Source: a virus
IMG/VR virus record: IMGVR_UViG_3300034073_005068
Coordinates: 1 to 34,708 of that record
DNA: 34,708 nucleotides
Reading direction: 5' to 3' (one strand)
This document shows, one piece after another, positions 5,269-28,500 of the stretch (its first letter is position 1; each line of letters opens with the position of its first letter). A program made the position numbers and the translations under genes. The notes under the pieces are model-generated. The model made no database searches and was not told where the DNA came from. It was given only the letters and a program-made list of their open reading frames with translations.

Positions 5269-5873
5269 TGAAGTTCCTCGTTTAATCCAGCCTGTTGATA
5301 ATTGATTTGAACTTCACCGAAGTCGGCGATCTTTTCCCTGACGATCGGCTCCTCTATCCTCAGGTCGTACCCGACGTAGGCGCCACCGAGAAATCTGTCC
5401 CCCTTCAAAAGCGTAAGTTCCGAATATTCCTCGGTGATCGTGGACTCGTCTATTATCGCCTCCCTTTTCGGGTTGGCCCTTTTTAGACAAGGGTGATCCA
5501 TCAAAGCGGAACGAACTACGACTATCAGTCTGTCCCGCATTACCGTGGTCGCTCTTTCGCCTTCGGTTCGGGCCCAAACGTAGGTTCTCATGCTGTAATT
5601 GACCGAATACTCCGGATCTCCGTATCTCATGTGTCCGACTCTCGTGAAACCCCTTCCAGAAAGCGCGACCGTTATGACTATCGGCCATTTGTCCATCGCC
5701 ATCGGTTCGTAGTCGATGTATTCCTCTGGGTCGGGCATTTCTTCGTTCGAGACTCCCCAATGATTCCGATACTTGATCAATCTTTTGGGTATCTCCAATT
5801 TCAAGTAGTCGTTCACGAAGTCCTTGGCGAACTGCGGGCCGTACATTCCTTCGAATTGAAGTTCGGCGGACAT
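5265..5873 (-). CDS. Probable tail terminator / neck protein
   Basis: The protein has 202 residues beginning MSAELQFEGMYGPQFAKDFV. A central block (RYGDPEYSVNYSMRTYVWAR, then TTVMRDRLIVVVRSALM) resembles tail terminator or minor head-tail joining proteins, where a beta strand with R-x-Y-V-W is followed by a helix with an R-D-R. In phages with this order the gene between the tail completion protein and the sheath caps the tail tube and joins it to the neck. It starts at a TAATG overlap with the upstream gene and ends at an ATGA overlap with the downstream one. Function is inferred from position and faint pattern only. Confidence 0.6.
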   Translation of the reverse strand: MSAELQFEGMYGPQFAKDFVNDYLKLEIPKRLIKYRNHWGVSNEEMPDPEEYIDYEPMAMDKWPIVITVALSGRGFTRVGHMRYGDPEYSVNYSMRTYVWARTEGERATTVMRDRLIVVVRSALMDHPCLKRANPKREAIIDESTITEEYSELTLLKGDRFLGGAYVGYDLRIEEPIVREKIADFGEVQINYQQAGLNEELQ

Positions 5874-6538
5874 TATCTAATTCCTCCGGCCGGTCCGATT
5901 GTTCCCGCCCTGACGAACTTGCCGATAAGACCTGCCCAAAGTCCGCTCGCCGCATCGGACTCGTAAACGAGTCTGCGCATGGGCATTCTCGTCGTTCCGT
6001 ATTGGTGCCATTTGGCGTAATTCACCTTGCTGGCGAATTCGATCGAATCGTTTTTCATTTTGTCCACCGTCAATCCGGTGGTCAAGCTCGTGAACAAAGT
6101 TCCGTCGGCGACCATGGTCGGTTTGCCCGGGTAGCGCACCGCCTTCCACGCCCCGTACGCGGCGCTGAGTGGTGCCCATCCGCCCGACGGTAGACCGTTT
6201 GCGGCGAAGTTGGCGGCGTTCATCATTGCGACGGACTGTCTGAGCGGTTCGGCCAACGGTGGTATGCACGACTTCGATCTGCCGTACATGTTTCGCATGA
6301 GCTTGTAGACGCCCCTCATGTGGGTGGCGCCGGCACTTGACTCCGGGGTTCCTATCGCGTGTATCGCTTGCTCGAAGGCCTGTATCTCTCCCCGCGCCTT
6401 AACCCACGAACGCTCGTTGGTCTTGGCGTCGATGGCTATGGATACGCCACCGCCCTTCTTGGGAAGATTAGGGAGTTCTTTTCCGGATGATTGGGCTTTC
6501 CTAACCCTGTCCCCGAAAGAATTTCTATTTCTTTTCAT
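5873..6538 (-). CDS. Virion morphogenesis / tail completion protein (Mu gpG / gpS-like)
   Basis: This 221-aa protein carries the pattern of the phage virion morphogenesis family. About residues 120-150 contain LSAAYGAWKAVRYPGKPTMV followed by DGTLFTSLT, and about residues 175-190 contain YAKWHQYGTTRMPMR, close to the family's usual His-Gln-x-Gly...Met-Pro-x-Arg core. Such proteins complete the tail or neck before head joining. The N-terminus (MKRNRNSFGDRVRKAQSSGK) is basic and probably disordered. The ATG overlaps the preceding stop as ATGA. The neighbours, a connector upstream and a terminator candidate downstream, agree with this. Confidence 0.8.
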   Translation of the reverse strand: MKRNRNSFGDRVRKAQSSGKELPNLPKKGGGVSIAIDAKTNERSWVKARGEIQAFEQAIHAIGTPESSAGATHMRGVYKLMRNMYGRSKSCIPPLAEPLRQSVAMMNAANFAANGLPSGGWAPLSAAYGAWKAVRYPGKPTMVADGTLFTSLTTGLTVDKMKNDSIEFASKVNYAKWHQYGTTRMPMRRLVYESDAASGLWAGLIGKFVRAGTIGPAGGIR

Positions 6539-7392
6539 CAGGCTATCCTTCTGCGCCTGTAGGCCTTTATGGCGTTGAGCTCCTTCTCCAAGAATCCGGT
6601 TTCAAGCGGTGCAACATTTCTGGTCGTCAAATCCTTCATTCCGACCGTGTCGTCGTGCATGTTTTGCATTTCCCTAGTGGCCGCTCGCAGAATCATCAAT
6701 TTCAGCATTTTTATTTGATTGCCGTCGAGTCCACCCGTGTAAACCACGGTTACCACGTCGTTGGGGAAACCTCTGTACAGCTCTATTCCGTAGCGGTGTA
6801 CCGTGTAATCGTTGCCGGTAGCTTTTGCCCTTCCTCCCGACGCGTACGTTCCCGTTATTCCCGGTTTCTTGAGGGTGAACGATGATGCGTTCGCATCAGT
6901 TATTTGAGCGAAAGCGACGTTCAACGTGCTTGGGGTTACGTCCCTAACGTCGACCCATTGTCCGACCCTGAAATCGTTGACGGAGAAATAGGTTGCGAAT
7001 TCCCCCGAAACCGTGGCATTGGTGATCACTGCGTCTCGTTGAAGGGCTTCCCCGAGGTACGTGGCGGACGACGAAAGATTTCTTATGCTGACGCTTTTCA
7101 CGGAGGCGACCGGGGAGTTGCGAAGCGATATTACCTGCGATGGCTGAATGTAATTCATCGTGTCGCCGGTGGTATCCAAGCTTTTGTCGTAGAAAAAAGA
7201 AGTAGCAGGAACGCCCTGGAAATAAGAGGGAATCACGTGTTCCTCGGTGTACTCCTCCTGCTCCACCGGCCGACCGAGGTACGCTTCCATTTCGCTCTGC
7301 AGTCCGAGCAGGATCATCTCGCAAGCATCCTCCTGACGAGCCGTCAGGCTGATGTCCATGTATGTCTTGAGGTCCGCTATGGAAACGAGCAT
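6538..7392 (-). CDS. Head-tail connector (gp6-like adaptor)
   Basis: This 284-aa protein begins MLVSIADLKTYMDISLTARQ and continues ILLGLQSEMEAYLGRPVEQE. This is the helical opening of gp6-like head-tail adaptors (pattern I-x-x-L-K-x-Y-L ... A-x-x-x-I-E-x-Y-L-G-R). The middle is an inserted beta-rich part of roughly 120 residues (about 75-195) that makes it longer than simple gp6 adaptors. The C-terminal half returns to helices (QIKMLKLMILRAATREMQN). Adaptors of this type bind below the portal. The ribosome site is weak (GAG). It opens the continuous neck/tail gene run. Confidence 0.75.
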   Translation of the reverse strand: MLVSIADLKTYMDISLTARQEDACEMILLGLQSEMEAYLGRPVEQEEYTEEHVIPSYFQGVPATSFFYDKSLDTTGDTMNYIQPSQVISLRNSPVASVKSVSIRNLSSSATYLGEALQRDAVITNATVSGEFATYFSVNDFRVGQWVDVRDVTPSTLNVAFAQITDANASSFTLKKPGITGTYASGGRAKATGNDYTVHRYGIELYRGFPNDVVTVVYTGGLDGNQIKMLKLMILRAATREMQNMHDDTVGMKDLTTRNVAPLETGFLEKELNAIKAYRRRRIA

Positions 7393-7814: not shown

Positions 7815-8351
7815 CTATCTGTCCCTGTTCGGAGGCCTCTCCATTGACGGTTTTTCGTCGCTCTTCGCCTCCACCGGAACCCAAGCCTTCGAATAAACGT
7901 GGTCGGCGACTTTTCTAAACTTCACGAGAGATCCATCGATGAGAATCCTGAATTCCATGGCCCCTATTCCCATGGCCTCCATTATTTCGTTCTCGTTGTG
8001 GGTTCCCGACATCGACACGGTTCTGACGATCTGGGACAGTCTTGCGTTCATTATCGCTCCCCTAGCCCTGTTCGCGACGACGTGCATCATCATTGCGTCC
8101 GTCTCGCTCACGTCGTACATGATCACCGGAACCGTTCCGCCCTCTTGGGTCAAAAGCTTGTGGGCGATGGCCAAATTCCTTCGCTCATGTCCGTCTATGA
8201 CCTGCATCGTTCTCGACGAAACCAATATCGGACTCGTCCAGCCGTATCTTTCTATGGATTTTGCGAGCAAGGAAAGATCGGGCTTGAGAATATAGGTGGC
8301 CCTCCACGGAGAGGGAAGAATATCTTTTGGATTTATAGATTCAATTTTCAT
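7815..8351 (-). CDS. ParB/Srx-like domain protein 1
   Basis: This 178-aa protein starts MKIESINPKDILPSPWRATY. It carries a ParB N-terminal-type core: LLAKSIERYGWTSPILVS, then VIDGHERRNLAIAH (equivalent to the Gly-His-x-Arg box), then a VVANRARGAIMN segment where ParB proteins have A-x-N-R. There is no obvious C-terminal DNA-binding domain. Family members bind or hydrolyse nucleotides, and some act as kinases or DNA-associated switches. The ATG lies within the last codons of the PAPS-reductase gene (11-nt overlap) with GGAG 8 nt before it, so the two are translated together. Its pairing with that enzyme recalls IbrB with IbrA of E. coli, whose chemistry I do not know to be established. Confidence 0.8.
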   Translation of the reverse strand: MKIESINPKDILPSPWRATYILKPDLSLLAKSIERYGWTSPILVSSRTMQVIDGHERRNLAIAHKLLTQEGGTVPVIMYDVSETDAMMMHVVANRARGAIMNARLSQIVRTVSMSGTHNENEIMEAMGIGAMEFRILIDGSLVKFRKVADHVYSKAWVPVEAKSDEKPSMERPPNRDR

Positions 8352-9471
8352 CGTCGTTCTCCTGTGCCAGCGATATGGAATAAGCGCGAGTCCCGGGGCC
8401 TATCGGCGTCGGTGCGTTGGTCGTGAAGTCGTTCAGGATTATGTTCCTGACCAACCAGTGAATCGGATAGCTTTTCGGGTCGTTGGCCATTTTCGCCCTG
8501 AATTTTCCGGCGTAAGCCATTGCGTACATCTTTACGCCCCTGTCGCCGGCATGGTCCTCTATGCACGCCCTTACTCCGGCCCAGCCCTCCGACGCATAGA
8601 GCATGATCAATCTTTCGACGTCGTAATCCTGCCATAGTCTCCTTTGTGCGTCTATGTCGGGCCACACCTCGTATAGGAGGTCGAAAAAATCCGGCTCGGT
8701 GGCGACGAGATCACCGATTCTTCTAATCGCAACCGAGTGAAGGGGTATTCCGACCCTCGTGTTGCTGCCGGTTATGGCCGCGGCGTCGTAGTAGGCGCAG
8801 TACTCGGCTCCATGCTCCTCGGTGATGAATTTCAAAACGTCGTCGGTCGTCCAGTCGTAAATGACTTTTGCGAAACGAAGCGGAAGATTTCGCTTGGACT
8901 TGTACGGCACGACTATGTAATTCTCGTGAAGCTTTTGAACCAAAGAACGATAACGAACCATGGATTCGTTGGCCCTTACGCCGGTTATGAAGGCCGTTTT
9001 GCCCTTCTTGCCCTGCATCGTGTAGTAGTCGATCGAATCGGGGAGAGGTGCGTCCCTGCTGAGTCCGAACGATTCGGCGGTGATGGCATGATCGGGTATC
9101 GGCCTTACCAATCTTCCTTCGTTCTCTCTTTGCTTGGACCACAACACCTCGGTTCTGCGTACGCCCATGGACCAGACCTCCGCTCCGTAGGGCATGCAGT
9201 ACCACTCCATATCTACCCAGTCGTAGTTTTTTACTTTATTGACGAAATCCAGGACCAACGGACTAACCATTTCCTCGTCCCTGAATATGACCTTCACCGG
9301 GCCGAGCCCGCGCTCTTCGTGAATTTCTTTGGCCAAGTAGAGAACCGCCGTCGAATCTTTCCCGCCGGAAAACTGAACGCAAACGGTGTCGAAGGTGTCG
9401 TAGACGTGGCGTATTCTTTGCCTCGCCGCCTCGACGCAGTTGATGTCCAAATACAACCTTTTTCGCGGCAT
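8341..9471 (-). CDS. PAPS reductase-like (adenine nucleotide alpha hydrolase fold) protein
   Basis: This 376-aa protein starts MPRKRLYLDINCVEAARQRI. The PP-loop SGGKDST lies at residues 35-41, which binds ATP or an adenylylated/PAPS-type substrate. Later blocks include VKVIFRDEEMVSP, FITGVRANESMVRYRS and WTTDDVLKFI, as in phage PAPS-reductase-family and IbrA/DndC-like proteins. The frame stays open upstream to 9573, but the ATG at 9471 overlaps the preceding ParB stop as ATGA and GGA lies upstream, so the shorter start is chosen. It sits between two ParB-like genes with overlaps on both sides. Involvement in nucleic-acid modification or sulfur transfer is possible but unproven. The classic CXXC or ECG(I/L)H catalytic motifs of sulfate-assimilation reductases were not seen. 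Confidence 0.85.
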   Translation of the reverse strand: MPRKRLYLDINCVEAARQRIRHVYDTFDTVCVQFSGGKDSTAVLYLAKEIHEERGLGPVKVIFRDEEMVSPLVLDFVNKVKNYDWVDMEWYCMPYGAEVWSMGVRRTEVLWSKQRENEGRLVRPIPDHAITAESFGLSRDAPLPDSIDYYTMQGKKGKTAFITGVRANESMVRYRSLVQKLHENYIVVPYKSKRNLPLRFAKVIYDWTTDDVLKFITEEHGAEYCAYYDAAAITGSNTRVGIPLHSVAIRRIGDLVATEPDFFDLLYEVWPDIDAQRRLWQDYDVERLIMLYASEGWAGVRACIEDHAGDRGVKMYAMAYAGKFRAKMANDPKSYPIHWLVRNIILNDFTTNAPTPIGPGTRAYSISLAQENDDEN

Positions 9472-10256
9472 CAGAAATCCGCGTTTGAATTCACGAAATC
9501 GATCAGCTTCGATGCCGTCGTATCGCCGACGTAGGCGGGATCGTTCCTCAGGTAACGAATGAAGTCGTACCATCTTTTTTGTTGATCGGCGTCGTCGAAG
9601 ACGAGCGTGTACTGAACGACGGCTCGCTCCCCCCCTTTGACGCCCACGGCGACGCTCCCCCTGGTCACCGCATCGCTCTCGTCGACCTCCGAGGTGGCCA
9701 CGAGTTTTGTTTCGCCGTCCTCCTCCACGGAGACGACCAACTCCTTGACGGAATCGTCTTGGAATGGATTGACCATGGTCGGAGCGAGATAGCCGCCCCT
9801 ATTGTTGTTGGTCTCGTTGACGACTATGTCGGTGGAGATGGACGCAATCTCAAAATCGTCCCAGCCGAGCCCGAGCAACAAATCTTGATATTCGGACGAA
9901 ACCTCGGACATCAGTTGCAGAACTATGGACTGATCGGTGTTGCCCAGCTCCGTGGTTCTGTTGTCGGCCAACGCGAAAGCGTTCGCCCTGTTTTCGTCGA
10001 CGTCGTAGACGATAACGGCGATCTTTTCCCAACCCAGCTTCTTTGCCGCGGCCAGCTGATGGTTCCCGGCTATGACGGTATACGTCCCGTCGTCAGGATT
10101 CGGTCGAGCGACTATGGGTTTTACTTGTCCGAATTCCGAGTACGAAGCGACTATCGCCTCTATGTTTCCTATCCTCGGATTTCTCTCGAGAGGAACCAGT
10201 ACCGAAACGTCCATCTCCAGGTTTTTGAGCGACTCGTGAATTTTGTGTCGACTCAT
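9471..10256 (-). CDS. ParB/Srx-like domain protein 2
   Basis: This 261-aa protein starts MSRHKIHESLKNLEMDVSVL. It shows a full ParB N-terminal core: LVPLERNPRIGNIEAIVASY, then VIAGNHQLAAAKKLGW (the G-N-H-x-x-A-A-x-x-L-G-W box) and AFALADNRTTELG. Residues after about 125 hold an acidic linker and a second domain (LVVSVEEDGETKLVATS to the C-terminus ASKLIDFVNSNADF) that I do not recognise. It differs clearly from the other ParB-like protein of this cassette, so it is not a recent duplicate. The ATG lies one base after the previous stop (TGAaATG); its own stop overlaps the PAPS-reductase start. Confidence 0.85.
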   Translation of the reverse strand: MSRHKIHESLKNLEMDVSVLVPLERNPRIGNIEAIVASYSEFGQVKPIVARPNPDDGTYTVIAGNHQLAAAKKLGWEKIAVIVYDVDENRANAFALADNRTTELGNTDQSIVLQLMSEVSSEYQDLLLGLGWDDFEIASISTDIVVNETNNNRGGYLAPTMVNPFQDDSVKELVVSVEEDGETKLVATSEVDESDAVTRGSVAVGVKGGERAVVQYTLVFDDADQQKRWYDFIRYLRNDPAYVGDTTASKLIDFVNSNADF

Positions 10257-10257
10257 T

Positions 10258-10596
10258 TCAGACCTGGGCCCTCACGTTGGCGTTGAGGGTTCGTAACGCA
10301 TCGATGGATGTCCTGAGGGAGAGGAGTCTCTCCCTTTTCGCTTTCACGAGACCTTCGGAGATTTTGTAGTCGTAGTTCTCGTCGTTCATTTGGTAATCGG
10401 CCCAGGCTTCGCGTTCCTTGATCGATCCTTTCGCCGAGAGATACGACTTCGCCCAGTTTGATTTGTACAAGGCTTCTTTTTTGGCCGCGTCCATGGAGAG
10501 AGTCTCGAAGGCCTCCGTCTCCTGCTCCAATAATTCGAGCAATCTCATGAGTTCTTCTTCGACTTCTACTTGGCTAATCGGCTTGGTTCGAGTCAC
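10258..10596 (-). CDS. Hypothetical coiled-coil protein, 112 aa
   Basis: The start is GTG at 10596 with AAAGGA about 8 nt upstream, overlapping the RuvC gene end by 23 nt. The protein MTRTKPISQVEVEEELMRLL is nearly all helical and highly charged, with heptad-like Leu spacing (LLELLEQETEAFETL), and ends LLSLRTSIDALRTLNANVRA. Similar short helical proteins occur among replication/recombination genes of phages, but I cannot name a family. It is probably co-translated with the RuvC-like resolvase. Confidence 0.7.
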   Translation of the reverse strand: MTRTKPISQVEVEEELMRLLELLEQETEAFETLSMDAAKKEALYKSNWAKSYLSAKGSIKEREAWADYQMNDENYDYKISEGLVKAKRERLLSLRTSIDALRTLNANVRAQV

Positions 10597-11134
10597 TGCA
10601 ACGTCCTTTGTAGTTTTCTATCGGCGACCAATCAACGCCATTAACTACGGCGACGCTTGATTCGGGCCAATCGTATCTTGCCTCACCACGCCGAAGCAAG
10701 GCCATTTCCTCGAGTATCCATGCGTCACACATGTCGTCCGCTCCGGACCCCGACCACACGATTCCGGTTCTCGCGGAAACCGCCGAAACGACCTCGCTCT
10801 TGGAAGAATTACCGCGGCCCGTGGCGAATTTCGCCCTGGTCGTGGGCTGCACGACGACGAACGGAATGTTCATTCCGCAAAGAACGTATCTCACCACACC
10901 ACCCAACTCGCCTATGGAAAAAGCCTGTCCCGACCTGGCGGCGAATGCGTACCCCTCCATTACCACGGCGCTGACGCCATGAAATCTGATCAACTCCTTG
11001 ATACTCAGGGATATGTCTACCAGTCTTTGTGTGCCGTTGGTTTTCGGCGTTATTGCCCCCGTCTGCCCCGCTGTCGACCAGCCCGTGGACGATAAGGACA
11101 AATCCAACCCCATGAAGCCGTATATTTTTTCCAC
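10574..11134 (-). CDS. RuvC-like Holliday junction resolvase
   Basis: This 186-aa protein has an RNase H-like fold with RuvC-type acidic residues: D11 in GFMGLDLSLSSTGWS, E60 in AVVMEGYAFAA, and D134/D137 in GSGADDMCDAWIL. A Lys/Ser segment (TGRGNSSKSEVVSAV) precedes the last strand, as in phage RuvC-like enzymes. It would cut branched DNA during recombination or before packaging. The apparent start is GTG at 11134 with no good ribosome site; the next choice is ATG at 11113, just before the first catalytic Asp. It follows a GC-rich structured spacer. Confidence 0.85.
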   Translation of the reverse strand: MEKIYGFMGLDLSLSSTGWSTAGQTGAITPKTNGTQRLVDISLSIKELIRFHGVSAVVMEGYAFAARSGQAFSIGELGGVVRYVLCGMNIPFVVVQPTTRAKFATGRGNSSKSEVVSAVSARTGIVWSGSGADDMCDAWILEEMALLRRGEARYDWPESSVAVVNGVDWSPIENYKGRCSDSNQAD

Positions 11135-14132: not shown

Positions 14133-16472
14133 TCACACGAGGATAGTGGTCGGTCTCCTAAAAGGCAAGCCCAATCCGGCAAGAAACGTGTAGGCGCCCA
14201 CGACGGAGTCCACCTGGTCGTCGTGGTTTGCGGCTTCGGGGAAAGTGGACATTTCGTCCATCCAGTCGGTCAGCCATGGCGCCCTGACCAGCCTCACGTT
14301 CCCGTTCGCGGCGGCGGCGGCGAAGGGCCTAGCTCTCGTTATTTTGTCGCCCGTCGACCTTATGCCCATGAAATCGTAGCCGGGAAGCACGTACCTGGAG
14401 TATTGGTCTACTAGGGCTTTTCCTGAGGATCCGGGTTCCTGTTCCATTCTCACGGCCACGGCCGGTCCGTCCTCGGCGGCGGTTTGTGCGATTATTTGCT
14501 CCACTTTTTCGCCCTTGACCCTCGCTCTTTTCACGTCCAAAACGTAGGCCACGCCGTTTTCAAAAAGCATCAACGTTCCGACGGTCCAGTCGGGATCAGG
14601 GTTGGACGAACTCGGCTCGGTGGCCGCCAGATCCCAAAACCTGCATGCCCTAGCCGTTGGGCCGACCTTGGGAACTTCGTTGGGGTCAATGATGACAAAA
14701 GAAGTCCTATCGAACATGGTTCCCAGCGTCGTCGCCCACCAGTCACCTTCCTCGAGGCGTCGGCGTTCTATGGGGTCCAGTGATGCCAGTGCTTGCCGAT
14801 AGGAAAAAGCGTCGATTCCTGGGTTGTCCGTCAGTTTGGATGGAACGAATACCCTACCCGTTGAGGTGCCCTCCACTATGAAGCGCTGCCTCACCCAGTT
14901 CGGGGCAGGGTTGGACGCCGCCCGCATTCTCAGGGGGATTTTTGCCAGCGGTCCCGATGACGGGCGCCTCAGTCGGGAGAAAAGATACCTGTAGTCGTTT
15001 TCTCGTATTTCGGTTACCTCGTCCATGCCTATGAACTGAAATTCCGAGTTTCCCGTCCACACCACTCGGCCGTTGTGTCTCGTAAGAAACGTATGATGAG
15101 GCGGAACCGTAAGGCAATGAACCGTTCCTTTGTAATGGGTTGAGACTATGGGGTTGAGATCGGTATTTAGACTTATCCCGGTATCCGATCCCGCGCGATG
15201 AAGAAGATGCACGTGAAACGCCAGCACATCATGTTCTTTCCCGTCCGGGGTCACCGTTTTGTCTTGACGTTCGTCCAGCGTCGCCCTAAAACCGCAATGT
15301 TGCGCAAGGCGAATTACGCCATCGGCCAACTCTCGCGAAACGGTCACATAGTGACCGCTATTTGGCGTCCTCCAAGTTCCATCCCCCTCTACCAGTGAGT
15401 TCAAAAGAAGACGCGAATACCTCGCTTTCCAAGCAAAAACCTCGTCTGGAATACGTTTATTTTGCGCACCCTTACCAGTGTTTTCATCGAGCCAAGAAGC
15501 AAGTTTGGAGTTGGTGAAAGTTAATTGTCTTGGAGTATCGCGGACATGGGAGCCGGATTTTTCGAGAATGTCCGCTAGGGAATTCTTGCCGTTTCTGCTG
15601 TGTTTGTCGTGCAGTGATATTTGTACCGTTCCCTTGTTCGTACATCCTTCGGCGATGTACCACCCAAGAAAAGTTGCCCAGTCCTCGGCACTAAAAATTA
15701 AATCGGAACTATTCTGGTGTCCCCGCAGTGAACGCGGAAACATGGCGGCACCGGGGTCAATGCCGCCCACGAATTCTCCGGCCTGCGGAAAGCGAGCCAC
15801 CTTCGGCAATTGATCGGTCCTGTACTTTCTCAGTTCTTTGACTCTCGGCGTCGACGCCCACCACGTGTGGTTTTCGGTAACGGCAAAAGACACATCGGAA
15901 CCCTCGCGAGGGCCGTAGATTGGTCCGTCGTGGTCGTAGGTCCAAGTATGGGTGACGGGCTGATAATCCCATTCCCGTGTCTCGGGATTCATTGATGCGA
16001 CCAATTCGCCAACCTTCACTTGGGTGATCGGTTTCCATCCGGAAAAGGTCAAAACTTCGGTATCGGGGGTGGTGCAGCCTTTGTAACGAAGGTAGTCGTT
16101 CTGATTGTTCAAGTATCCGAACGAAATTCTCGCCCCGGAGGGGAAGGTCGCCACGTAGGTGTTGCTATTCCAGTGGACTTCGTCGTAACTGGATATCCAG
16201 TTCCTGAATCTGTCCATCAAGGCCCCCGGCAACGAGAGGTCGGCGAAAGTACGCCTGAACAAGATCGCCGAATATCCGGGCACGTCCAGGTGCTGCATGG
16301 CGGCCATGAGGAGGGCGGACGATTTGCCACCGCCGGCTGCGCCACCGAATAAAGCCTCGAGGGCGTTGGTTCTCAAAAACACTTTTTGGGTTATTGAGGC
16401 CTCCTCCGGGCAAAACAGAGGCTTCTTCGGTTGAAGCCAGTCGAGTACTTTGTCCCAGTCCGTGGTGCTCAT
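14133..16472 (-). CDS. Terminase large subunit interrupted by an intein
   Basis: The 779-aa precursor holds a 436-aa packaging ATPase/nuclease and a 343-aa intein. With the ATG at 16472 as residue 1, the Walker A is at 43-52 (GGAAGGGKSS). The intein covers residues 133-475, and the Walker B (FIGMDE, D484/E485) follows eight residues after the splice point. The C-terminal nuclease has FWDLAATE (D614), RMEQEPGSSGK and NHDDQVDSVV acidic motifs. The enzyme packages DNA into the prohead. A TTG six bases earlier (16478) is an alternative start. No small terminase was recognised nearby. It heads the leftward gene block, opposite in direction to the portal gene, which is atypical because terminase and portal usually run together. 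Confidence 0.95.
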   Translation of the reverse strand: MSTTDWDKVLDWLQPKKPLFCPEEASITQKVFLRTNALEALFGGAAGGGKSSALLMAAMQHLDVPGYSAILFRRTFADLSLPGALMDRFRNWISSYDEVHWNSNTYVATFPSGARISFGYLNNQNDYLRYKGCTTPDTEVLTFSGWKPITQVKVGELVASMNPETREWDYQPVTHTWTYDHDGPIYGPREGSDVSFAVTENHTWWASTPRVKELRKYRTDQLPKVARFPQAGEFVGGIDPGAAMFPRSLRGHQNSSDLIFSAEDWATFLGWYIAEGCTNKGTVQISLHDKHSRNGKNSLADILEKSGSHVRDTPRQLTFTNSKLASWLDENTGKGAQNKRIPDEVFAWKARYSRLLLNSLVEGDGTWRTPNSGHYVTVSRELADGVIRLAQHCGFRATLDERQDKTVTPDGKEHDVLAFHVHLLHRAGSDTGISLNTDLNPIVSTHYKGTVHCLTVPPHHTFLTRHNGRVVWTGNSEFQFIGMDEVTEIRENDYRYLFSRLRRPSSGPLAKIPLRMRAASNPAPNWVRQRFIVEGTSTGRVFVPSKLTDNPGIDAFSYRQALASLDPIERRRLEEGDWWATTLGTMFDRTSFVIIDPNEVPKVGPTARACRFWDLAATEPSSSNPDPDWTVGTLMLFENGVAYVLDVKRARVKGEKVEQIIAQTAAEDGPAVAVRMEQEPGSSGKALVDQYSRYVLPGYDFMGIRSTGDKITRARPFAAAAANGNVRLVRAPWLTDWMDEMSTFPEAANHDDQVDSVVGAYTFLAGLGLPFRRPTTILV
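15048..16076 (-). other. Intein with LAGLIDADG homing endonuclease in the terminase
   Basis: The intein starts with Cys (CTTPDTEVLTFSGWKPI, block A) and has block B SFAVTENHTWWAS. It carries two LAGLIDADG-type motifs, FLGWYIAEGC and LLNSLVEGDGT, 85 residues apart. Block F is GTVHCLTVPPHHTFL and it ends VVWTGN before Ser. Joining the flanks gives LRYKG-SEFQFIGMDE, a typical uninterrupted terminase sequence, so the borders are firm. The penultimate residue is Gly, not the usual His. With both splicing and endonuclease motifs present, this is probably a mobile, full-length intein inserted next to the ATPase active site. Confidence 0.93.
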
Positions 16473-16546
16473 TGCCAATCCAAATTACACCTTAGGCTAG
16501 ATTATTCACGTCAACGAAAATAACGCTACGAACGAGAGGTGAGTCC
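16473..16546. promoter_or_regulatory. Divergent control region between leftward and rightward blocks
   Basis: Both gene blocks leave from this 74-bp stretch, so it should hold promoters in both directions. On the minus strand TTGACG (16509-16514) and TGTAAT (16484-16489) are separated by 19 bp, a slightly long but plausible -35/-10 pair. Its start point would fall almost at the terminase start codon, which implies a leaderless or near-leaderless mRNA. No convincing rightward promoter was found. Confidence 0.35.
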
Positions 16547-18974: not shown

Positions 18975-19031
18975 AACACCGTAGTTCATTCCGGCGATTC
19001 GCCGATCGTGGTTTATTATTGACGCTTGCCG

Positions 19032-19580
19032 ATGAATGACGAACAAATTCTGCAAGATTCCGACTATTCCTATAAGTCGCTGAACGCACAGTTCAACATA
19101 GACGAGGCCGAGGGAATAGTAGAGGCTTTCGCCGCCGGGATAGGAAACAAGGATTCCGTCGGCGACATATGCCTGCCCGGCTGTTTCGCCGGATCGCTGA
19201 AGCGCAGAAAGCCCAGAGTCGTTTGGGGCCACAACTGGAATGAGCCTATCGGAAAGGTTTTGGACATATACGAGGTCGGACCGAACGATCCGAGGTTGCC
19301 GTCCAAGATGAGAAAAGCCGGAATCGGCGGTTTGTACGTCAGGGTGCAATTCAATATGAAGTCCGAGCGCGGCAAAGAGGCGTTCGCCAACGTCTCATTT
19401 TTCGGTTTGGAACAGGAATGGTCGATCGGTTATAAAACTTTGGATGCCGTTTTCGATCCCGTACAGGGTGCCAATCTGCTGAAGGAGGTCGAACTGTACG
19501 AAGTCTCCCCGGTACTGCACGGAGCGAACCAATTGACTGGGACGATATCGATAAAAGCGGACGACATCGAGACCTCGAAC
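19032..19580 (+). other. Protease domain (peptidase S78) of the giant protein
   Basis: About residues 1-183 match prohead proteases. They show DEAEGIVEAFAAGIGNKDSV near the N-terminus, the catalytic His H67 in VVWGHNWNEPIGKV, the nucleophile S131 in LEQEWSIGYKT, and the closing block VELYEVSPVLHGANQLTG, which contains the third acidic position. The usual family length is 180-250 residues, so the domain itself is normal; only its fusion is extraordinary. Confidence 0.9.
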
Positions 19581-22500
19581 AAAGACGAGGTACAGATAAA
19601 GCGCGAGGTATTGCGAGACCCGAAAGGCGGTCTCACCGCCGCGGGCCGAAGACATTTCAAGAGAACGGAAGGTGCGAATCTCAAGCCGGGAGTCAAGGGA
19701 CCTGCGGACACCCCGGAAAAAATGAGACGAAAAGGATCTTTCTTGACGCGATTTTTCACCAACCCAAGCGGCCCGATGAAGAAACCCGACGGAAAGCCGA
19801 CCAGACTCGCATTGTCGGCCGCGGCTTGGGGCGAGCCCGTACCCCAGAACATGGAGGATGCGGCGAAGTTGGCCGCAAAGGGGCGAAAGCTACTCGAGAG
19901 ATACGAAAAATCCAAGAAAAAAAAGAAGGACGACCACGACGAAGTGGAGACGAAGAATCATGTCGCGGCCATCTACGAGGCCTACAACTCAAATCAAAAC
20001 GAGGCGTTCGGCAGGGCTTCGCAACTAACGCGAGCTCTCGCCACGCGTTTCGGGGGACCGGTTCGATTGATAACCGCGGACAACGACATAGCGATATTCG
20101 AAATGGGTGCGGGAACGGCGACCGAGACGATGAGAGTTGCGTACCACTTTGACGGCGATGAATTCATGTTCGGCACCGCACAACAGGTAAAACCGGAGAC
20201 CATATACATACCGACCAACGACTCGACCGGTAGCAGGATCAATCCGCCCAGCGAGACGAATCAAGTAACCGTGTCCATGCCGACCAAGCCGGTCGGTTCC
20301 AGTTGTTGCCCCGGATGCGCCGGCGGCAAGGGCGATTGCGATGCGGTAATACCGTTCGTGAAGGACGAAAAAGCGAGAGTTACGCATTCCAAACTTTCCA
20401 GTCTCGGCAAACAACTCGGATTCACGGTGGAAATGTTCGAAGACGGCTTCATCCTCGGTGGATTCGGAAATTTGACCCCCGAGGCGCAAGAATTCGTAGC
20501 GGAAAAGATCGTAGGTGCGGAAAAAAAAGCACTTACGCCCCTAGGAATGCTGGCGGTAAATATGAACCCCGCCACGGCCAGGGACGCTGATCAAGACAGG
20601 CTGGTACTCGAGGGAATACCGACCATAAATTTCGGTCGCGGAGTTCCCGATCCAACGCCTTTCGGTCTCCCAAACGTCGATGCCGGAGAGAGATTCGTTG
20701 AACGAGTAAAGCCGAAAACTCGTCCGAAGAGAAGGGGAAGAGTCGTTTCGCGACCCGACGCTCCGAGAATGATGCCGGCCGTTCCGGATCCGGATAGGGA
20801 GGCGCCCGACGTCATACCGGAGAAGCCGAAGAAACCGCAGACGGTTCCCGTGGAAAAACCGGAAAGAGAGAAAGTAAAACCAAGAACGCCGTCTCGCCCC
20901 ACGAGGGAACCGAGACCACAACCGACCACTCCGTCTCCGGTGCGAGAACCGGTTCGCGAGCCGGTGCCCGCGGTTCCGCGCCGAGAACCAGCCAGACAGC
21001 CGCAAACGACGCAGATCATCGAACCGGTCGCGGCGATGGCGAGCAGAGAAGTTCCCGAAAACATTCGCGAAGCTCTTCGGGAAGCTCTTCGGGAACCGGA
21101 CGAAGACGATGAAGTAATGCAGGTCGAGGGCGGCCACGCAATTCAAGAACGGACGCAAGATCGGCTCAAGGACGTCGGCTACGAAAAGATGAGAAGTCTC
21201 ATGGGCATAGACGACGAAAACAGACCGTCGTCCACCCAGGGCCCGACTGCCTCCATGGCAAGAACGAATAAGAACGATTTGGGTAGAAAAATTTGGCTTG
21301 AAAGAACATACGACAATGCGTCCCTAGAGGACATGGCCAGAAAATACGGCATCAGCAGACAAGAGGCGAGGCAACTTGAATTGCGCCATAGTCGTTCGCT
21401 CAGGGCGTTCGGCGAAACGAGCCCCAACAGGGTCGGGCGACGCATGATAGACGATGCAGCGGCAACGCTTTCCGAGGATGAGTCCGATCTGCTCAGAAGA
21501 AGATTCGATGGAGAACTCCTAGAAGAGTCTGCGGAAAGACTCGGAATGGACAGATTCGCAATACGAAGAATGGAACAACTAGCACTGGCGAAATTGCGAG
21601 ACGCAATGATCACCGACGAGCCGACGTCGTCCATGGGTATCCGTCGGAGAAACCAGGCGGCTGGAACCGTCAGGCGCCCAAAAGGTGAAACGTCTCCCAC
21701 GACCGGGAGGGCAACCAAACAACGCTTAGACCCGACGGTCATGCAAATGTTCGAGTCACTCCGTGGCACCGGCGGACTAACCGACCCTCAGGCATTTAGG
21801 GTGGCGACAATGATGCGTTTGCGTCGTCAAATTAGCAACAAGATAGATCGCCTTTTGGCGAACAATCTCGGAAGACGAATTTCCGAAATCGGTGACGACG
21901 TAAAAAAACTAGACGAGGCATACACCGGTCCATTTACCAGCACGGCCGAAGCAGCGCACGTAACGGTCGGCAGAGTCACCGACTTGGCGGATGCGGTCGT
22001 AAAAATGGCCAACGGAGAACACGACCCACTTGATTTGGATGCGAGCATAAACGCCAACGTATTCAATACGGTTGACAGAAAAAACGGAGACGTGGCGGAA
22101 GCGGCGAGAAGTCTGGGAATGAGCCCGTCCGTCGTTTTGTCGCGCTACAACGCCCACGCCCTGAAGGTCATGGCTTCATCTACTCCGGCTAGGGAGATGG
22201 TCAGAAACGCCCTCAACGACAGGGGAGACCTACTGGACGATTCGGAGACGTCGGCGGTCATCGGTTGGGTCAACGGAATGGGGGACATGGACGTGTCCGA
22301 ATCCATGGGCTCCGTCGTTTCGCCGTCTGCAGTGGTGGAAAAACGAGCCTCGGCACTTCGAAAACTCGGAATCGACATCGGGTCCAAAGAAATGAGAAGA
22401 CGCATAGTTTCCGGTCGCATTTTTTACGATGAGAACGGTCTCTATTCCGAATTGATCGACGGAGACGGGGTGATAGTCAGGAACAGAATCGGAGACGGTC

Positions 22501-25500
22501 CGGTCGGCTCGATGTCCGGAACTTCCAAGAGGGTCATAACGGCCGACTTCGGTGATGGACCGACGGAGTATGCGATATCCAGTTCGGCGAGGAGGGATAG
22601 CGGCGACGGGGAAAACGTTTCTCTGGTGCGCGTGACCGGCGACGATGAACTGTCGGTTTCGTCATTGATCGGAAGAGAAATTCTCAACGGAGACGACAGG
22701 AATGCGTTGCCCAAACTGAGCGGAGTTTTACTGGGTGGAGCCGAGGGCGACAGGGTGATCCTCGACGACGGAAGACAGTCGCCCATTCTTTCCAGGAGAT
22801 TGACCGACGATTCTCTCGTAACCACTCCGCTGAGAGAATCTTTGCGTGATGCGGCGAGACTAAAGAGTTCGGTGACGCAGGCCACGGCGAAGAAATTGGA
22901 CAAGTTGGATGGCGACGTGGAGATTTCAGAAAAACGAGTCGAGGGACTCGAACAAGCTCTTCGTCACTTTGACGAAACCGGCGAATGGTTGGGCGAAGAT
23001 TTCGGAGTTTCCTTCTGGTTCGCCAACGAAAACATGCTCGATGAATTCATATTCGAGCGAGGCATAGACGCCAGGGAGGGAAGCAGAAGAAGGAACGAAT
23101 CAGGGGAATGGGTGGGCGAGGTTGACGTTCCTGAGCCGTTCAATCTGAGCTCGGAAGAAATAGACGAAACCTACGCAAATTATGCTCGCCAACAAAACCC
23201 CAACGCCACCGAAGAAGAAGTGGCGAGCGTAATCGCCGACCGCAGGAGAAATTTTAGAAAACGCATAGCCAGAAAACTCGACATAGCCAAAAAAGAATCC
23301 GACATGCGTCGGTTCATGGCCGAGAGCAAAAAAACCCGTACATCGCAGAATATGGTCGACTTGGAGGACGTTCCGTCGGAAGTGGCGGACATGCTCGGCA
23401 GAGAGTCGAATTACATTCGCACGCTTTCCAGTCCGAGATCCGTCTATGCGGCGACCGAGGGTTCCGACATGGTTTACGTCGCGCATAAGGGCCCACACAT
23501 GTTGGACGGAGGATTGCTGGATCCCGGCAAAACGCAGGGAATAGCCGGGCAGAGAGTCGGCGTGGCCGGGAATACCGCTCTACTTAACCAAAACTCCTCG
23601 AGATTGTTCATCGGCACAGCCCGAGCGCAAAGAAAATTGTTGAATGGCGCCAAAAAACTAAGGGATTTCTTGGCGTCCGGTGAAAACAGGTTGCTTTTGG
23701 ACGAAGAGTCTTCGGAGGCCCTCAAAAGATGGGTTGACGAAAGAATCGCTCCTTCGGACGGAGTGTTGGATCTAGCAAGATTAAAGGCGTCGTATCCGAA
23801 TTACGACTTATCCAAGTTGGTCGCCAAACTTGACGACTTGATACCGCCGACAGAAAGACAAGTCCTCAGGTACGAAAAAGCCGTCGCGGCGCTCGAACGC
23901 TCCGGCGGAAATTACCTTTCGGCGGAAATAGACATATGGGAAGCGATACGAGGCATAGGAAGCTATTACGCAAGATATGCGTTGTCCGATATCCCCGAGG
24001 ACGTCCAAATAAATCCGCCGGAATGGAGACAGTCCAATTTCGGAGAATCCAGAAAAACCGTGGACGAGTACATGGCGTGGTGGTGGCAACGCATGGCGAC
24101 CCGAGGAGGAACCTGGTTGGTCGCCGGCGAAAAGGACTCGCAAATATCGCAAGGAGTCGTCGGAACCTCCAACGAAACGCAAATTTTGGCCCCCTTGAAA
24201 CCGATCGTCGGAGTCTCGACGAGGTGGGGCGGCTATTCGATGCACGAGGCGGAGAGGGATCTTTACGCAAGATTGTCGCCGGCGATATTCGCCAGAGCCG
24301 TAAAACAACACAAGAGGGATGGATTCGTCGATGTCGACACGCTTCTTTCCGATCCGGATTTGGCCCCAGACGGCTACGTCTACGACGGTCCGATTGCGAG
24401 CATGGCGCTCCGCATCGGACCAAGTTCCGGTGATAGACGCGCACTCAGGGGAGCGATGCCAGGTGATGAGCCGATCGCATCAATGTCCTCGGATGAAAAC
24501 AAGCCGACTCCGACCAGCAAGGGCATGGACCTGGTCGAGCGAAGCGACCGTTTCTACCCGGTGGACAACAACAGGTTGATCGACTTCTCCCGAATGCCGG
24601 TATCGGAACAAGACCAGATGTTCGAGTTGGCGGATAAGGTCCGGTACGGGCTCGATATGACCCCGTTTGAAATGATCGTTTTTGAGGGTCTCGTCAGAAA
24701 GGCGGAGCGCATAAACGCTCCGCGCACGAATTTGAGAAAAAACCCTCACGAATCGGACGAAGTAGTAGTGGACGAAATCGCCGCCGGTGGAGATCCATTC
24801 AAGATGAGATGGAGGTACGTGGATCCAGAGACCGGTGAGGAAACGCTTTATGAGCTGAAAAAAGTCGGCATGGACCACCCCGCCGCGCGCATGCACTACG
24901 TGAGGGTTAGGAAATACCAATTCGCCCCCAATGGAGAGTGGCTCTATGCATGGAATCATCCAGAAAACGAATCCAACCCCGGGAATTATGGTTCCGTCCA
25001 AAATTGGCCCGAATTCCCGGCGAGAAGGGAGGGAGAAGAAATAACGATGCGGTCCATGGTCGGTGAGCAATTCTTGCAAGACCGAGCGGACATACGATTC
25101 CAACGACTCAGGACGAGAGCACTAGACGAGGCTCTCGGTGTCGGCGATTCGTATCCGAAACCGTGGGAGGTTGAGCACGAAATCGAATCACGATTGGGGA
25201 ACATTAGGCCTTTGTCGAGCTACAAAGCCCAATATTTTATTTACAACTACTACGAAGGTCAAGTTGACACGGTGTACGGCGACGGCAAGAAGGACGGACA
25301 GATAGTAGAAACCGACGACTCGGTTTTCATCGTGGGTAACGGATATTTCGAGGACATCAAAGACCTCATCGATCGATCTAGGGCGACGAACAAGGCGATG
25401 TTGATCAACACGTATGGACACGAAAACGCGGGCGACGAGCTGTCCCCATCTTCGCGCTACTTGGCCATTTCGTCCCCCGAATTGGTATTCGGAAGAATTG

Positions 25501-28500
25501 CACGCAGAGAAGAGGGTGGCTACGTCTTTGAGCCGCTCGAAGAATCAAGCCCGGCAAGGCGAGCCGAACTACACCTGTTGGGGACCGACGAATCCGGGAA
25601 GCCCGTTGCCGTTGCCGTTTCGAACATAGTGATGTATCGCGGTTCGCGCGAAGAAGCCCAAAAAGCAAAAGCCAGGTCCGCTAGCGAAGCCATGCGGGAG
25701 CCGACACGAGCATTTTCCGTATCCCCAGCCGACGCGGAGACGGACGGGACGGTTACCATAGAAGGGGACAGCTCCGACTCGGTCATCGCCGCGGCCCAGA
25801 AAGCCGCATCTCTTTCTTCGGAAACCGGATTCGCACACGATTTAATTTTTTCTTATCCTTCCTCTACTCCCGACGGAAGAGGTTACAAAAAAACGCTAAA
25901 GAAGCGACGCCTTCGCGACGTCGAAGTGATGAATGGCGTATGGGATGCGGAGCAAGGAAAACTAAGAAAAGCGACCCCTGACGAAAAGGGTGCCTCTACG
26001 TACGTGGTCGGAACCGAATTGGTTATCGACGAGGAGGGGGTCGTCTCGGCGGGCGAAAGAAAAACTTTCAATGTCTCGCGCATTCGTCCTGCATCGGCAT
26101 CACCCAACGAAACACCAAGAGTGGAACCCGAAGACGGGCGTCGGGAAACTCGGGACGACTATGCAAGTTCCGGATCCGACGAAAGGCGGAGGGAATCACG
26201 CACGACTCGCGAGTACATGTTCGATGAGCCGAGTCCGGCGGGAACCGAAACGGAGGAAAGAGGAGACTATCCGCACGACAGCATCGAGGGAACCTTAGCC
26301 AATCCGATTGCACCGTCGGTGGCTGCTCGCGCATTGGACGGTGGAGATATTGGGGCGATAGAGGCGAGGCAAAAAGATCAAAGCAGAATGATGACGCGAT
26401 GGAGAATGGAAAGACCAAATAGGGGCACCAAGTTTCCCACGAGAAGGACTTGGAGATACGAAATAGACGATAACGGCCGAAGAGTTCCGAAATACCCGTT
26501 CCGTAAGGCGGTTCGTCCGTGGGGCGGAAAGATAAAGAGCGTTCTCGACGGCGTGCGAAGCTGGAAAGAATTGGCCGATTTCATGAAGACGAATACCGTC
26601 TACATGATCGACTGGGAGACGACCGGAATGGTTGCCGGAAAAGCCAGGGACTTTGGGGCTCCGTTGCAAGTCGCCGTATTCAAAGTCGTCAACGGAGAGG
26701 TAGTCGACAGATTGATACGTTACATGAACCCCAAGGGAGTAAGACTTTCCCAGTGGTCCAAGGACAACCTGAAGAGGGACGGAGTTCCGATCACCGACGA
26801 ACTAGCCGCGACTTTTGACGACCCCGAAATGGTCATGAAAGAATTGCTGGAATTCATCGGAGAAGATGCGATCTTGATGGGCCACAATCTCGAGCAGTTC
26901 GATCTTCCGGTATTCAAGAAAATGCTTCCCGACTACGAAATCGGTGGATGGATAGACACTCTCGCAATAGCAAACTCAATTTTCGAGTTGGACAGGGCGA
27001 GAATGCGGAAACTACTCAACGAACGCCATCCGGACGTATGGGACATGGTCAAGTGGGTTTCTTACCCCAAATATGGAGCTCGTTATTGGAAGTCCTATAC
27101 CGGTCCGCTAAAAAGATCTCAGCGCATTTCAAAGAAGACCGGGAAACCATATTTCACGGGGGAGCCGTCCACTTCGCTCGAGGCCCTAACCAATTACTTC
27201 GGAATAAAAGTGAGCGGTGCTCATGACGCCGAGGTTGACGGAATCAACACGGTCAGGGTCTTGGGCAAAATGCTCGACCTTGCCTCTAGGTGGGACGCCG
27301 ACCCCGACATGTTTGATCCGGACATGATCGATTGGAGGGACAAAGACGAAAGCGAAGTTCATTCGGCCGCCGTAATCGAATGGGAGACCATGATGCGAGC
27401 CGTCAACGGTCAACGCGAGACGCTTTTTGACGACGATGGCTCGTCCTCTCGGGGGGAGCCCGGGTCGGAGCAACCACCAAGGCCCGGCCCTTCTTCGTCC
27501 AGAAAAAGAGAGGAGACCCGTTTTGACCCGAATAGGCGAGTACTTCAAACTTTGGACAACGGAGTTAACGTCGTCGAGAGCAGACAGTCCGGAGTTCATT
27601 TTGAAATTCCGAACGATTTTTCGATACGAATTCCCGAAAACGCAGCCTCTGTTCTTGGAATGATAAAACAGGGTCAGGACGGAGGATTCGGAATCTCCTT
27701 CGTCTACGGATCGGTGGCTGACGGGGTCCCGAGGCGCCAACAACTCTTCTCATTGGAGGTTGTGCCGAAACGTGGGCTAACGGCCGAACAAGCCAGAGCG
27801 AGGGGTCTAGCCGGATACGAATTGCACGGAGTGGACCCGATAAGCGGACTGCAACAGTCTTTCGACATGGAATTCATCAACTCCAAAGACGCGCCGGATC
27901 CGAAACCAAGCGACATCAATCTTCCCGTAAGGCACCAACCATCCCCCGCAGGACTCGGAGTTTCGACCAAGAAGTTGACGAGTCACCAATACGCCGACTA
28001 CGTGAGACGCTCGAGAGCCAGATCATCGGCCTTTGACGGACCGACGGGCTCAATGTCCGGTTTAACCAATCGGGACGGAGTGGAAAACCCATTCTCGTAT
28101 TGGCAGTACGGCGAAAACGACAGGATGTTTTCGGACATGTCGACCGATCAAGTGGCTTTGGTGGCTCGAGAGTCGAGGCGTAGATTCGAAACCGCATTCA
28201 GGGCCGGGCCATCGCGCAATTCCGAAGCCATCGCCCATCTCGATGCGATCGCCGCTGCCAACAGAACAATGCGGGTCAGGTCCTCCGACCCCGTTGACGA
28301 TAGCGGCCTCAGGGCGACGGTGGACGAAGCCGGATACAGATTGGAGGGCTCGCTCGAGGTTCCCACGTTCTCGGCGGAATCTGGTTACGCGATTCCGGCG
28401 GTCGGTTCCGCGAGGAGAGTCGAGCTCGCAAAAAATGCCTCTATATCAAGCGCTTTCAATTCAATCATCGCATCCAACAGAAGGGGAAATGCGATCCGAG

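Follow-up and report, generated by a model that had tools for sequence, protein, structure and literature searches.

Three adjacent genes on the minus strand of a 34,708-base virus sequence (IMG/VR record IMGVR_UViG_3300034073_005068, a fragment, referred to here at its full length as the window) form a conserved phage cassette that probably modifies phage DNA through activation by ATP. In order of transcription they encode ParB1 (positions 9471–10256, 261 aa), with an N-terminal ParB/Srx (sulfiredoxin) domain at residues ~30–120 followed by a C-terminal module; a PP-loop ATP pyrophosphatase (8341–9471, 376 aa from the ATG at 9471), named 3′-phosphoadenosine-5′-phosphosulfate (PAPS) reductase, cysH or IbrA elsewhere; and the IbrB-like ParB2 (7815–8351, 178 aa), with a ParB/Srx fold and then a helical region of predicted DNA-binding type. 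A TGAAATG junction leaves one base between the stop codon of the upstream gene and the ATG of ParB1, ParB1 and the PP-loop gene have one base in common (TGATG), and the 11-base overlap of the PP-loop and ParB2 genes comes with a GGAG-like site. An original prediction, made from the letters of the window, described two dissimilar ParB-like genes flanking a PP-loop gene with overlapping or near-touching ends, and these three open reading frames (ORFs) and their junctions bear it out. Among the roles it proposed, which also included sulfur transfer and control of a host nucleotide pool, DNA modification is the best supported. We favor it because in relatives the trio exchanges, within one genomic slot, with proven or predicted DNA-modification modules; mutual exclusion of these modules, a ParB1 module that follows the partner enzyme, conservation of the unit and an intact ATP-type loop lend further support.

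Terminases of the Bclasvirinae are 58–62% identical, yet the genes between the genome start and the terminase differ by genus. The slot of Arbiter (Rosebushvirus rosebush) holds ParB, an annotated tRNA-guanine transglycosylase (TGT), QueC, QueD, QueE and FolE, with QueC and FolE confirmed by Pfam; dPreQ0 makes up 28% of G in Rosebush DNA (PMC6884629). Nigel carries ParB, a Tet_JBP dioxygenase and a P-loop kinase (Ploopntkinase3) at this place, and Phlyer carries ParB, two small genes, the PP-loop gene and ParB2. A RuvC gene follows the terminase in all three phages. Gordonia phage Wooper has ParB, TET, ADDT/aGPT-PPlase2 and a 5-hydroxymethyluracil (5-hmU) kinase. A second, independent pair is provided by Arthrobacter phages Salgado and Ottawa, whose terminases are 65% identical: the order is ParB, PP-loop, ParB2, methyltransferase, helix-turn-helix and TerL in Salgado, and ParB, ParB, TET, kinase, TerS and TerL in Ottawa. 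The trio thus occupies, in relatives, an exchangeable slot with a common ParB; in the window it lies on the same strand as the terminase and RuvC-like genes, but several genes away from the terminase. ParB genes are also found beside phage DNA modification by CmoX (5cxmC; PMC12783734) and beside thymidine hypermodification enzymes in phages (PMC11955845), and ParB-linked DNA modification occurs elsewhere with DpdB and DndB (PMC12839542).

Mutual exclusion was assessed in 12 genomes, 7 from phages with the PP-loop gene and 5 from others. TET (phrog_6059) was matched in none of the 7 PP-loop phages and in 4 of the 5 others (Nigel, Ottawa, Wooper and MementoMori); the model, which is narrow, also matched nothing in 14 relative records. 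Conversely, the PP-loop gene was found in 0 of the 5 other phages. QueC was present in Arbiter only, among 19 records, and the 5-hmU-type kinase (Ploopntkinase3) was confined to TET phages. The PF01702 model for TGT had no match in 25 records, and the same model missed the annotated TGT of Arbiter. Within the 12 genomes the 7-deazaguanine, TET/JBP and PP-loop/ParB2 modules exclude one another.

The TET gene of Nigel itself, gp2 (L284:776-1744, phrog_6059), is called a queuine tRNA-ribosyltransferase by PHROGs and in several GenBank records. We reject this name and treat the protein as TET/JBP: its Pfam match is Tet_JBP (4e-6, under the curated threshold), and elsewhere in GenBank the family goes by Tet-like, thymidine hydroxylase or oxidoreductase. 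The ribosyltransferase name for phrog_6059 is a probable case of a spreading annotation error.

ParB1 matches PF02195 with 43.2 bits, above the cut-off, and phrog_723 with 1.7e-38. Its best profile matches are Noc and ParB, and sulfiredoxin and SbnI are matched as well. The N-terminal part is common to all module types (Phlyer1 and Nigel1, 58% identity over 128 aa; prophi93 and Wooper1, 56% over 165 aa). The C-terminal module (QYTLVFDD..QQ.WY.F; residues 205–261, positions 9474–9644, minus strand) was seen only in ParBs linked to a PP-loop enzyme: it was matched (profile positions 207–254) in Salgado5, Phlyer1, prophi92/93, Bac79 and, weakly, Rhiz88, and its profile gave no match in the TET- or Que-linked ParBs Nigel1, Arbiter1, Wooper1, Ottawa72/73 and Memento1. 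A tblastn search with the module returned 53 phage records, 52 from Mycobacterium and 1 from Arthrobacter, and all 40 of those listed are PP-loop carriers. As judged by these comparisons, the C-terminal module of ParB1 switches with the partner enzyme.

ParB2 scores only 18.8 bits with PF02195, below the cut-off of 26.3, and is assigned through phrog_2159 (3e-26) and an AlphaFold2 (AF2) model that matches Noc, KorB and ParB over ~160 columns. A helical segment of the model matches the DNA-binding part of the Noc, KorB and ParB structures, consistent with a DNA-binding-type region. The predicted nucleotide-site motif IDGHER (residues 52–57; 8181–8198, minus strand) has invariant D53, G54 and R57, and NR..G forms a second invariant nucleotide-site motif. 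The C-terminal signature YSxAW (residues 153–157; 7881–7895, minus strand) is invariant in every lineage.

The middle protein matches PF01507 with 40.8 bits (3.1e-10), above the Pfam cut-off, and phrog_2302 with 3e-69; the Pfam scan returned PF01507 only, with no DUF3440. Its SGGKDS PP-loop motif (residues 35–40; 9352–9369, minus strand) is invariant in 43 of 43 representatives. The motif G-x-R-x-x-E-S-x-x-R (residues 164–173; 8953–8982, minus strand) is likewise invariant, and RDEE, W111, R115 and D206-W207 are fully or nearly so in the family alignment. Cys225 (YCxxYD; 8797–8799, minus strand), present in 42 of 43 core-family representatives, is the sole near-invariant cysteine, and its column is Asn (YN..YD) in most IbrA proteins. 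For the AF2 model (predicted local distance difference test score, pLDDT, 86), the best PDB matches found by Foldseek were CysH, FAD synthase/FMN adenylyltransferase, CysD, TilS and thiolases, all of them PP-loop proteins. The alignments mostly spanned ~230 columns, leaving the C-terminal helical part of the model largely without a match, and a PDB search with the single sequence gave nothing usable. Both the SGGKDS loop and the alpha-hydrolase fold of N-type PP-loop ATP pyrophosphatases are present. In Escherichia coli CysH the loop reads SSSFGIQ and the C-terminal end carries ECGLH; neither the window protein nor any conserved column of the representatives offers a counterpart to the catalytic cysteine of ECGLH. 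Because SGGKDS is intact, ECGLH is missing and the fold matches are PP-loop proteins, the middle protein is predicted to be an ATP-using PP-loop enzyme, not a PAPS reductase; the reaction is probably an adenylation. The invariant SGGKDS and the lack of ECGLH contradict a CysH/PAPS reductase identity, and with it the PAPS-reductase-like label of the original prediction.

An IMG/VR scan with the PP-loop protein identified at least 599 relatives, and the best 80 loci were analysed, 81 with the window. All three genes were found in 37 loci, the PP-loop gene with ParB2 in 5, with ParB1 in 2, and alone in 37, the last belonging to other actinophages. The same three proteins, in the same order, are seen again in dozens of independent contigs, with protein identities of 25–75%. 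Outside the window clade, where the relatives from Arthrobacter, Bacillus and Rhizobium phages served as queries, a ParB precedes and ParB2 follows the PP-loop gene, within ~1.1 kb, in 26 of 26 untruncated loci. Named carriers include Salgado (genes 5-6-7), Phlyer (gp1/gp4/gp5), Mycobacterium abscessus prophi79-1 (92/93/95/97), Bacillus 031MP004 (79/80/84) and Rhizobium L338C (88/89/90). For this PP-loop subfamily, ParB–PP-loop–ParB is therefore the normal arrangement across phages that infect Mycobacterium, Arthrobacter, Bacillus, Rhizobium and freshwater actinobacteria, and the earlier description of the double-ParB form as less usual does not hold. A scan of a genome collection with the PP-loop alignment returned mostly other PP-loop families; beyond these it gave IbrA/IbrB-like pairs in enterobacteria and, in Kribbella, one clear locus with ParB1 and the PP-loop gene.

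The loci in which the PP-loop gene stands alone bear on the prediction that the three genes act together. Both such records of more than 100 kb, G001 (105.7 kb) and G002 (137.8 kb), contain exactly two ParBs, separated from the PP-loop gene by ~20 and ~70 kb, and profiles of the window clade identify these as true orthologs (363–370 bits for ParB1, 238–241 bits for ParB2). ParB2 remains in the ancestral place, between phrog_1389 and a neck gene. With gene distances of 20–70 kb, the PP-loop-alone records of 37–56 kb are uninformative on ParBs. Among 13 relative records of at least 60 kb, picked by their PP-loop gene, ParB2 was present in 13 and ParB1 in 12. Physical linkage is thus not required for the three genes to be kept together in a genome, and synteny together with their co-retention when scattered rules out chance adjacency. 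The idea of a unit is upheld by the recurrent synteny and by the retained orthologs; a search for relatives lacking co-occurrence gave 37 of 81 loci with the PP-loop gene alone, and both of the long records among them hold the ParB orthologs elsewhere.

Phlyer (Bclasvirinae), Salgado (Laroyevirus), prophi79-1, 031MP004 and L338C carry the same three families in the same order and orientation as the window, and in the actinophages the unit adjoins the terminase and often RuvC. Protein identity to the window unit is 25–37%. The window unit differs in its tighter packing, in the lack of the phrog_11826 methyltransferase, and in its setting, a contractile-tailed phage from freshwater in which the terminase is several genes away. 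The Rosebush-type dPreQ0 cassette (ParB-DpdA-QueC-QueD-QueE-FolE), for which DNA modification is proven, resembles the relatives' trio in its pre-terminase slot, its homologous ParB as gene 1 and its PP-loop enzyme, QueC. Unlike that cassette, the trio has no TGT, QueC, QueD, QueE or FolE annotated beside it, its PP-loop enzyme is distinct from QueC, and the tested trio carriers lack a QueC gene. The TET/JBP cassette of Nigel, Wooper and Ottawa has the same slot, a homologous ParB gene and accessory transferases, whereas the tested trio carriers have no phrog_6059 TET or Ploopntkinase3. DndC/SspD and BrxP belong to the PP-loop family, as does the window protein, which has a weak DndC match (1e-7) over the loop region; this similarity is restricted to ~70 residues. 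DndB is a ParB-fold partner in many Dnd systems. None of DndD, DndE, SspB, SspC and cysteine desulfurase appears among the annotated neighbours of the trio, as read from neighbour annotations.

We infer the chemistry, and the protection that it would confer, as follows. ParB1 and ParB2, with their nucleotide-binding ParB/Srx fold, would bring the enzyme to phage DNA, a step suggested by the ParB2 region that resembles the DNA-binding part of ParB, KorB and Noc. The PP-loop protein, whose motifs are intact, would then spend ATP to adenylate a base carbonyl, a phosphate or a donor moiety, as TilS, TtcA/MnmA, QueC and DndC do on their own substrates, and a sulfur or nitrogen nucleophile would displace AMP. 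In some lineages the product may be trimmed or decorated by a methyltransferase or a histone deacetylase (HDAC)-fold deacetylase. As with other modules of the same slot, the phage would gain by evading host nucleases.

Candidates for the lineage-specific step are encoded beside the cassette. A deacetylase of the HDAC/arginase fold (PF00850, 1.5e-24 to 3.7e-28) separates ParB1 from the PP-loop gene in four loci from freshwater phages (L053:3587-4471, L073:4078-5004, L078:3464-4402, and L081); in L074 and L080, whose contigs end there, it immediately precedes the PP-loop gene, and L204 has the gene too. The phrog_11826 methyltransferase follows the cassette in Arthrobacter (Salgado), M. abscessus (prophi79-1) and Bacillus phages. 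These partners suggest that an amine or acyl group is processed further. Cys225 could act as a sulfur carrier, although IbrA mostly has Asn at that column. More tentatively, the trio may represent a new type of DNA modification, in which DNA is the direct substrate of an ATP-adenylating PP-loop enzyme and its two ParB/Srx partners, of which one specifies the enzyme and the other binds DNA. The product would be a sulfur- or nitrogen-containing base or linkage outside the present catalogue, finished in some lineages by the HDAC-fold deacetylase or a methyltransferase.

Several observations weigh against DNA modification. In the window the cassette is surrounded by recombination and neck genes, which leaves the slot argument to relatives of 25–37% protein identity, and the absence of TGT from carriers is unsupported, since PF01702 failed on Arbiter. 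No sulfur-donor or amine-supplying gene is constantly linked to the trio. A nearby PP-loop gene is missing from 27 of 80 ParB2 loci, and none was found in the 79 kb ParB2 record G030, which may be incomplete. IbrA and IbrB, distant relatives, have been described genetically as activators of prophage genes. In the literature searched, which left most subscription papers outside, no modified nucleoside of any trio carrier was reported. Finally, Orion, with a lone DpdA, has unmodified DNA (PMC6884629), and a gene in the slot is therefore no guarantee of a modified base.

The kinship with IbrA/IbrB raises a different role, in which ParB2 and the PP-loop protein would turn on late or moron genes as transcription co-activators, with ATP as a switch. 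The likeness is real in gene order: in the E. coli ECOR-9 island, in Streptococcus, Lactobacillus and Pseudoalteromonas phages and in phage Gaia, a PP-loop gene is followed by an IbrB-type ParB, and such a ParB lies directly 3′ of the PP-loop gene in the window. ParB2 is homologous to phage IbrB (59.7–65.2 bits) and the PP-loop core to IbrA, the model of ParB2 includes the DNA-binding-type region, and late genes often follow the cassette. IbrA nonetheless differs from the window protein in having a C-terminal DUF3440 domain (tested in Gaia) and mostly Asn where the window family has Cys225; a single ParB is a feature of this DUF3440-bearing branch, and the gene upstream in Gaia and phiAQ113 encodes a helicase where the window has ParB. 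A regulator would leave the swap with TET and Que modules unexplained, and the active-site motifs are invariant. We regard the co-activator role as unlikely.

No more probable is a counter-defence or takeover enzyme whose target would be a nucleotide, tRNA, protein or defence signal of the host instead of phage DNA. PP-loop enzymes have tRNAs and small molecules as known substrates, and phage ParB-fold proteins bind ATP, GTP or CTP (PMC12704722), but two ParBs with DNA-binding-type features and a DNA-modification slot indicate DNA as the target. A plasmid-prophage partition system, with an unrelated enzyme between its two ParBs, is very improbable: both flanking proteins have the ParB fold, yet both fall below the cut-off for the canonical ParB architecture (TIGR00180, 56.2 and 20.4 bits versus 58.45), no ParA-like match was found among the scanned genes of the window, itself a fragment, and the PP-loop gene is kept together with the ParBs. 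Least credible of all is an auxiliary metabolic gene whose product, a CysH-type PAPS reductase, would raise sulfate assimilation in the host; such a role accords with the PF01507 match and with the reading given to 167 freshwater-phage ‘cysH’ genes (PMC10914622) but not with the contrast to CysH in loop and catalytic cysteine, the constant ParB partners, or the lack of any CysI/CysJ/CysC-type gene among the annotated genes of the window.

The genes around the trio place it in a contractile-tailed phage. Upstream lie the terminase large subunit (14133–16478, minus strand, in the orientation of the trio; phrog_979, 1.7e-101), Rad52-like, PD-(D/E)XK and HNH genes, a RuvC-like resolvase (10574–11134, minus strand; phrog_159, 5e-31) and a phrog_1389 protein (10258–10596, minus strand), one base upstream of ParB1. 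Downstream are neck (5873–7392), sheath and tube genes, and the predicted position of the cassette beside the neck genes is confirmed. The RuvC-like gene is a repeated neighbour of the cassette, in mycobacteriophages too. The phrog_1389 protein, at 69–92% identity, is the best conserved of the neighbourhood, and its gene remains with ParB2 where ParB1 and the PP-loop gene have relocated. The window terminase contains a LAGLIDADG-like insert (22.0 bits, just below the cut-off) that is probably an intein, and the Phlyer terminase is likewise annotated with an intein. A plus-strand ORF of 3983 aa (19026–30977) has a prohead protease domain (PF04586), DUF6321 and sub-threshold stretches resembling sigma70 region 4 and an RNase T-like exonuclease; from these domains it is predicted to encode a giant structural or fused polyprotein.

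Two further associations of the PP-loop gene were observed in relatives. In PP-loop-alone phages, a large ORF that by eye resembles an SNF2-type helicase is convergent to the PP-loop gene, ~0.6–2.8 kb downstream of it (L011, L014, L021, L031, L034, L064 and L072), and in Lactobacillus phage phiAQ113 an SNF2-type helicase gene lies directly upstream of the PP-loop gene; the two genes possibly have a recurring functional link. A pyrimidine-dimer DNA glycosylase (PF03013) is encoded immediately or almost immediately upstream of the PP-loop gene in several large actinophage loci (L034:4582-5004, L076:4239-4649).

The gene order as such is already present in GenBank records and is not new. What is likely to be new is the reading of the PP-loop trio as a variant of exchangeable DNA-modification cassettes in which ParB is the constant subunit: the literature searched contained no text linking the trio to ParB-associated DNA modification, and no functional study of the phage trio. 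Among phages already in culture, ~50 that infect Mycobacterium and a dozen that infect Arthrobacter carry the trio. Studies of viromes assign phage cysH genes to assimilatory sulfate reduction (PMC10914622; PMC8319345); for this PP-loop family the ‘cysH’ sulfate-assimilation name is unsafe, and that reading should be dropped for its members. If the DNA-modification reading is correct, an abundant phage gene (at least 599 contigs) of a kind usually counted as sulfur metabolism would be part of a DNA-modification system, and ecological readings of freshwater and marine viromes would change. It would also explain why ParB-fold proteins recur beside phage DNA-modifying enzymes, with ParB serving as the constant, partner-specific subunit of exchangeable cassettes.

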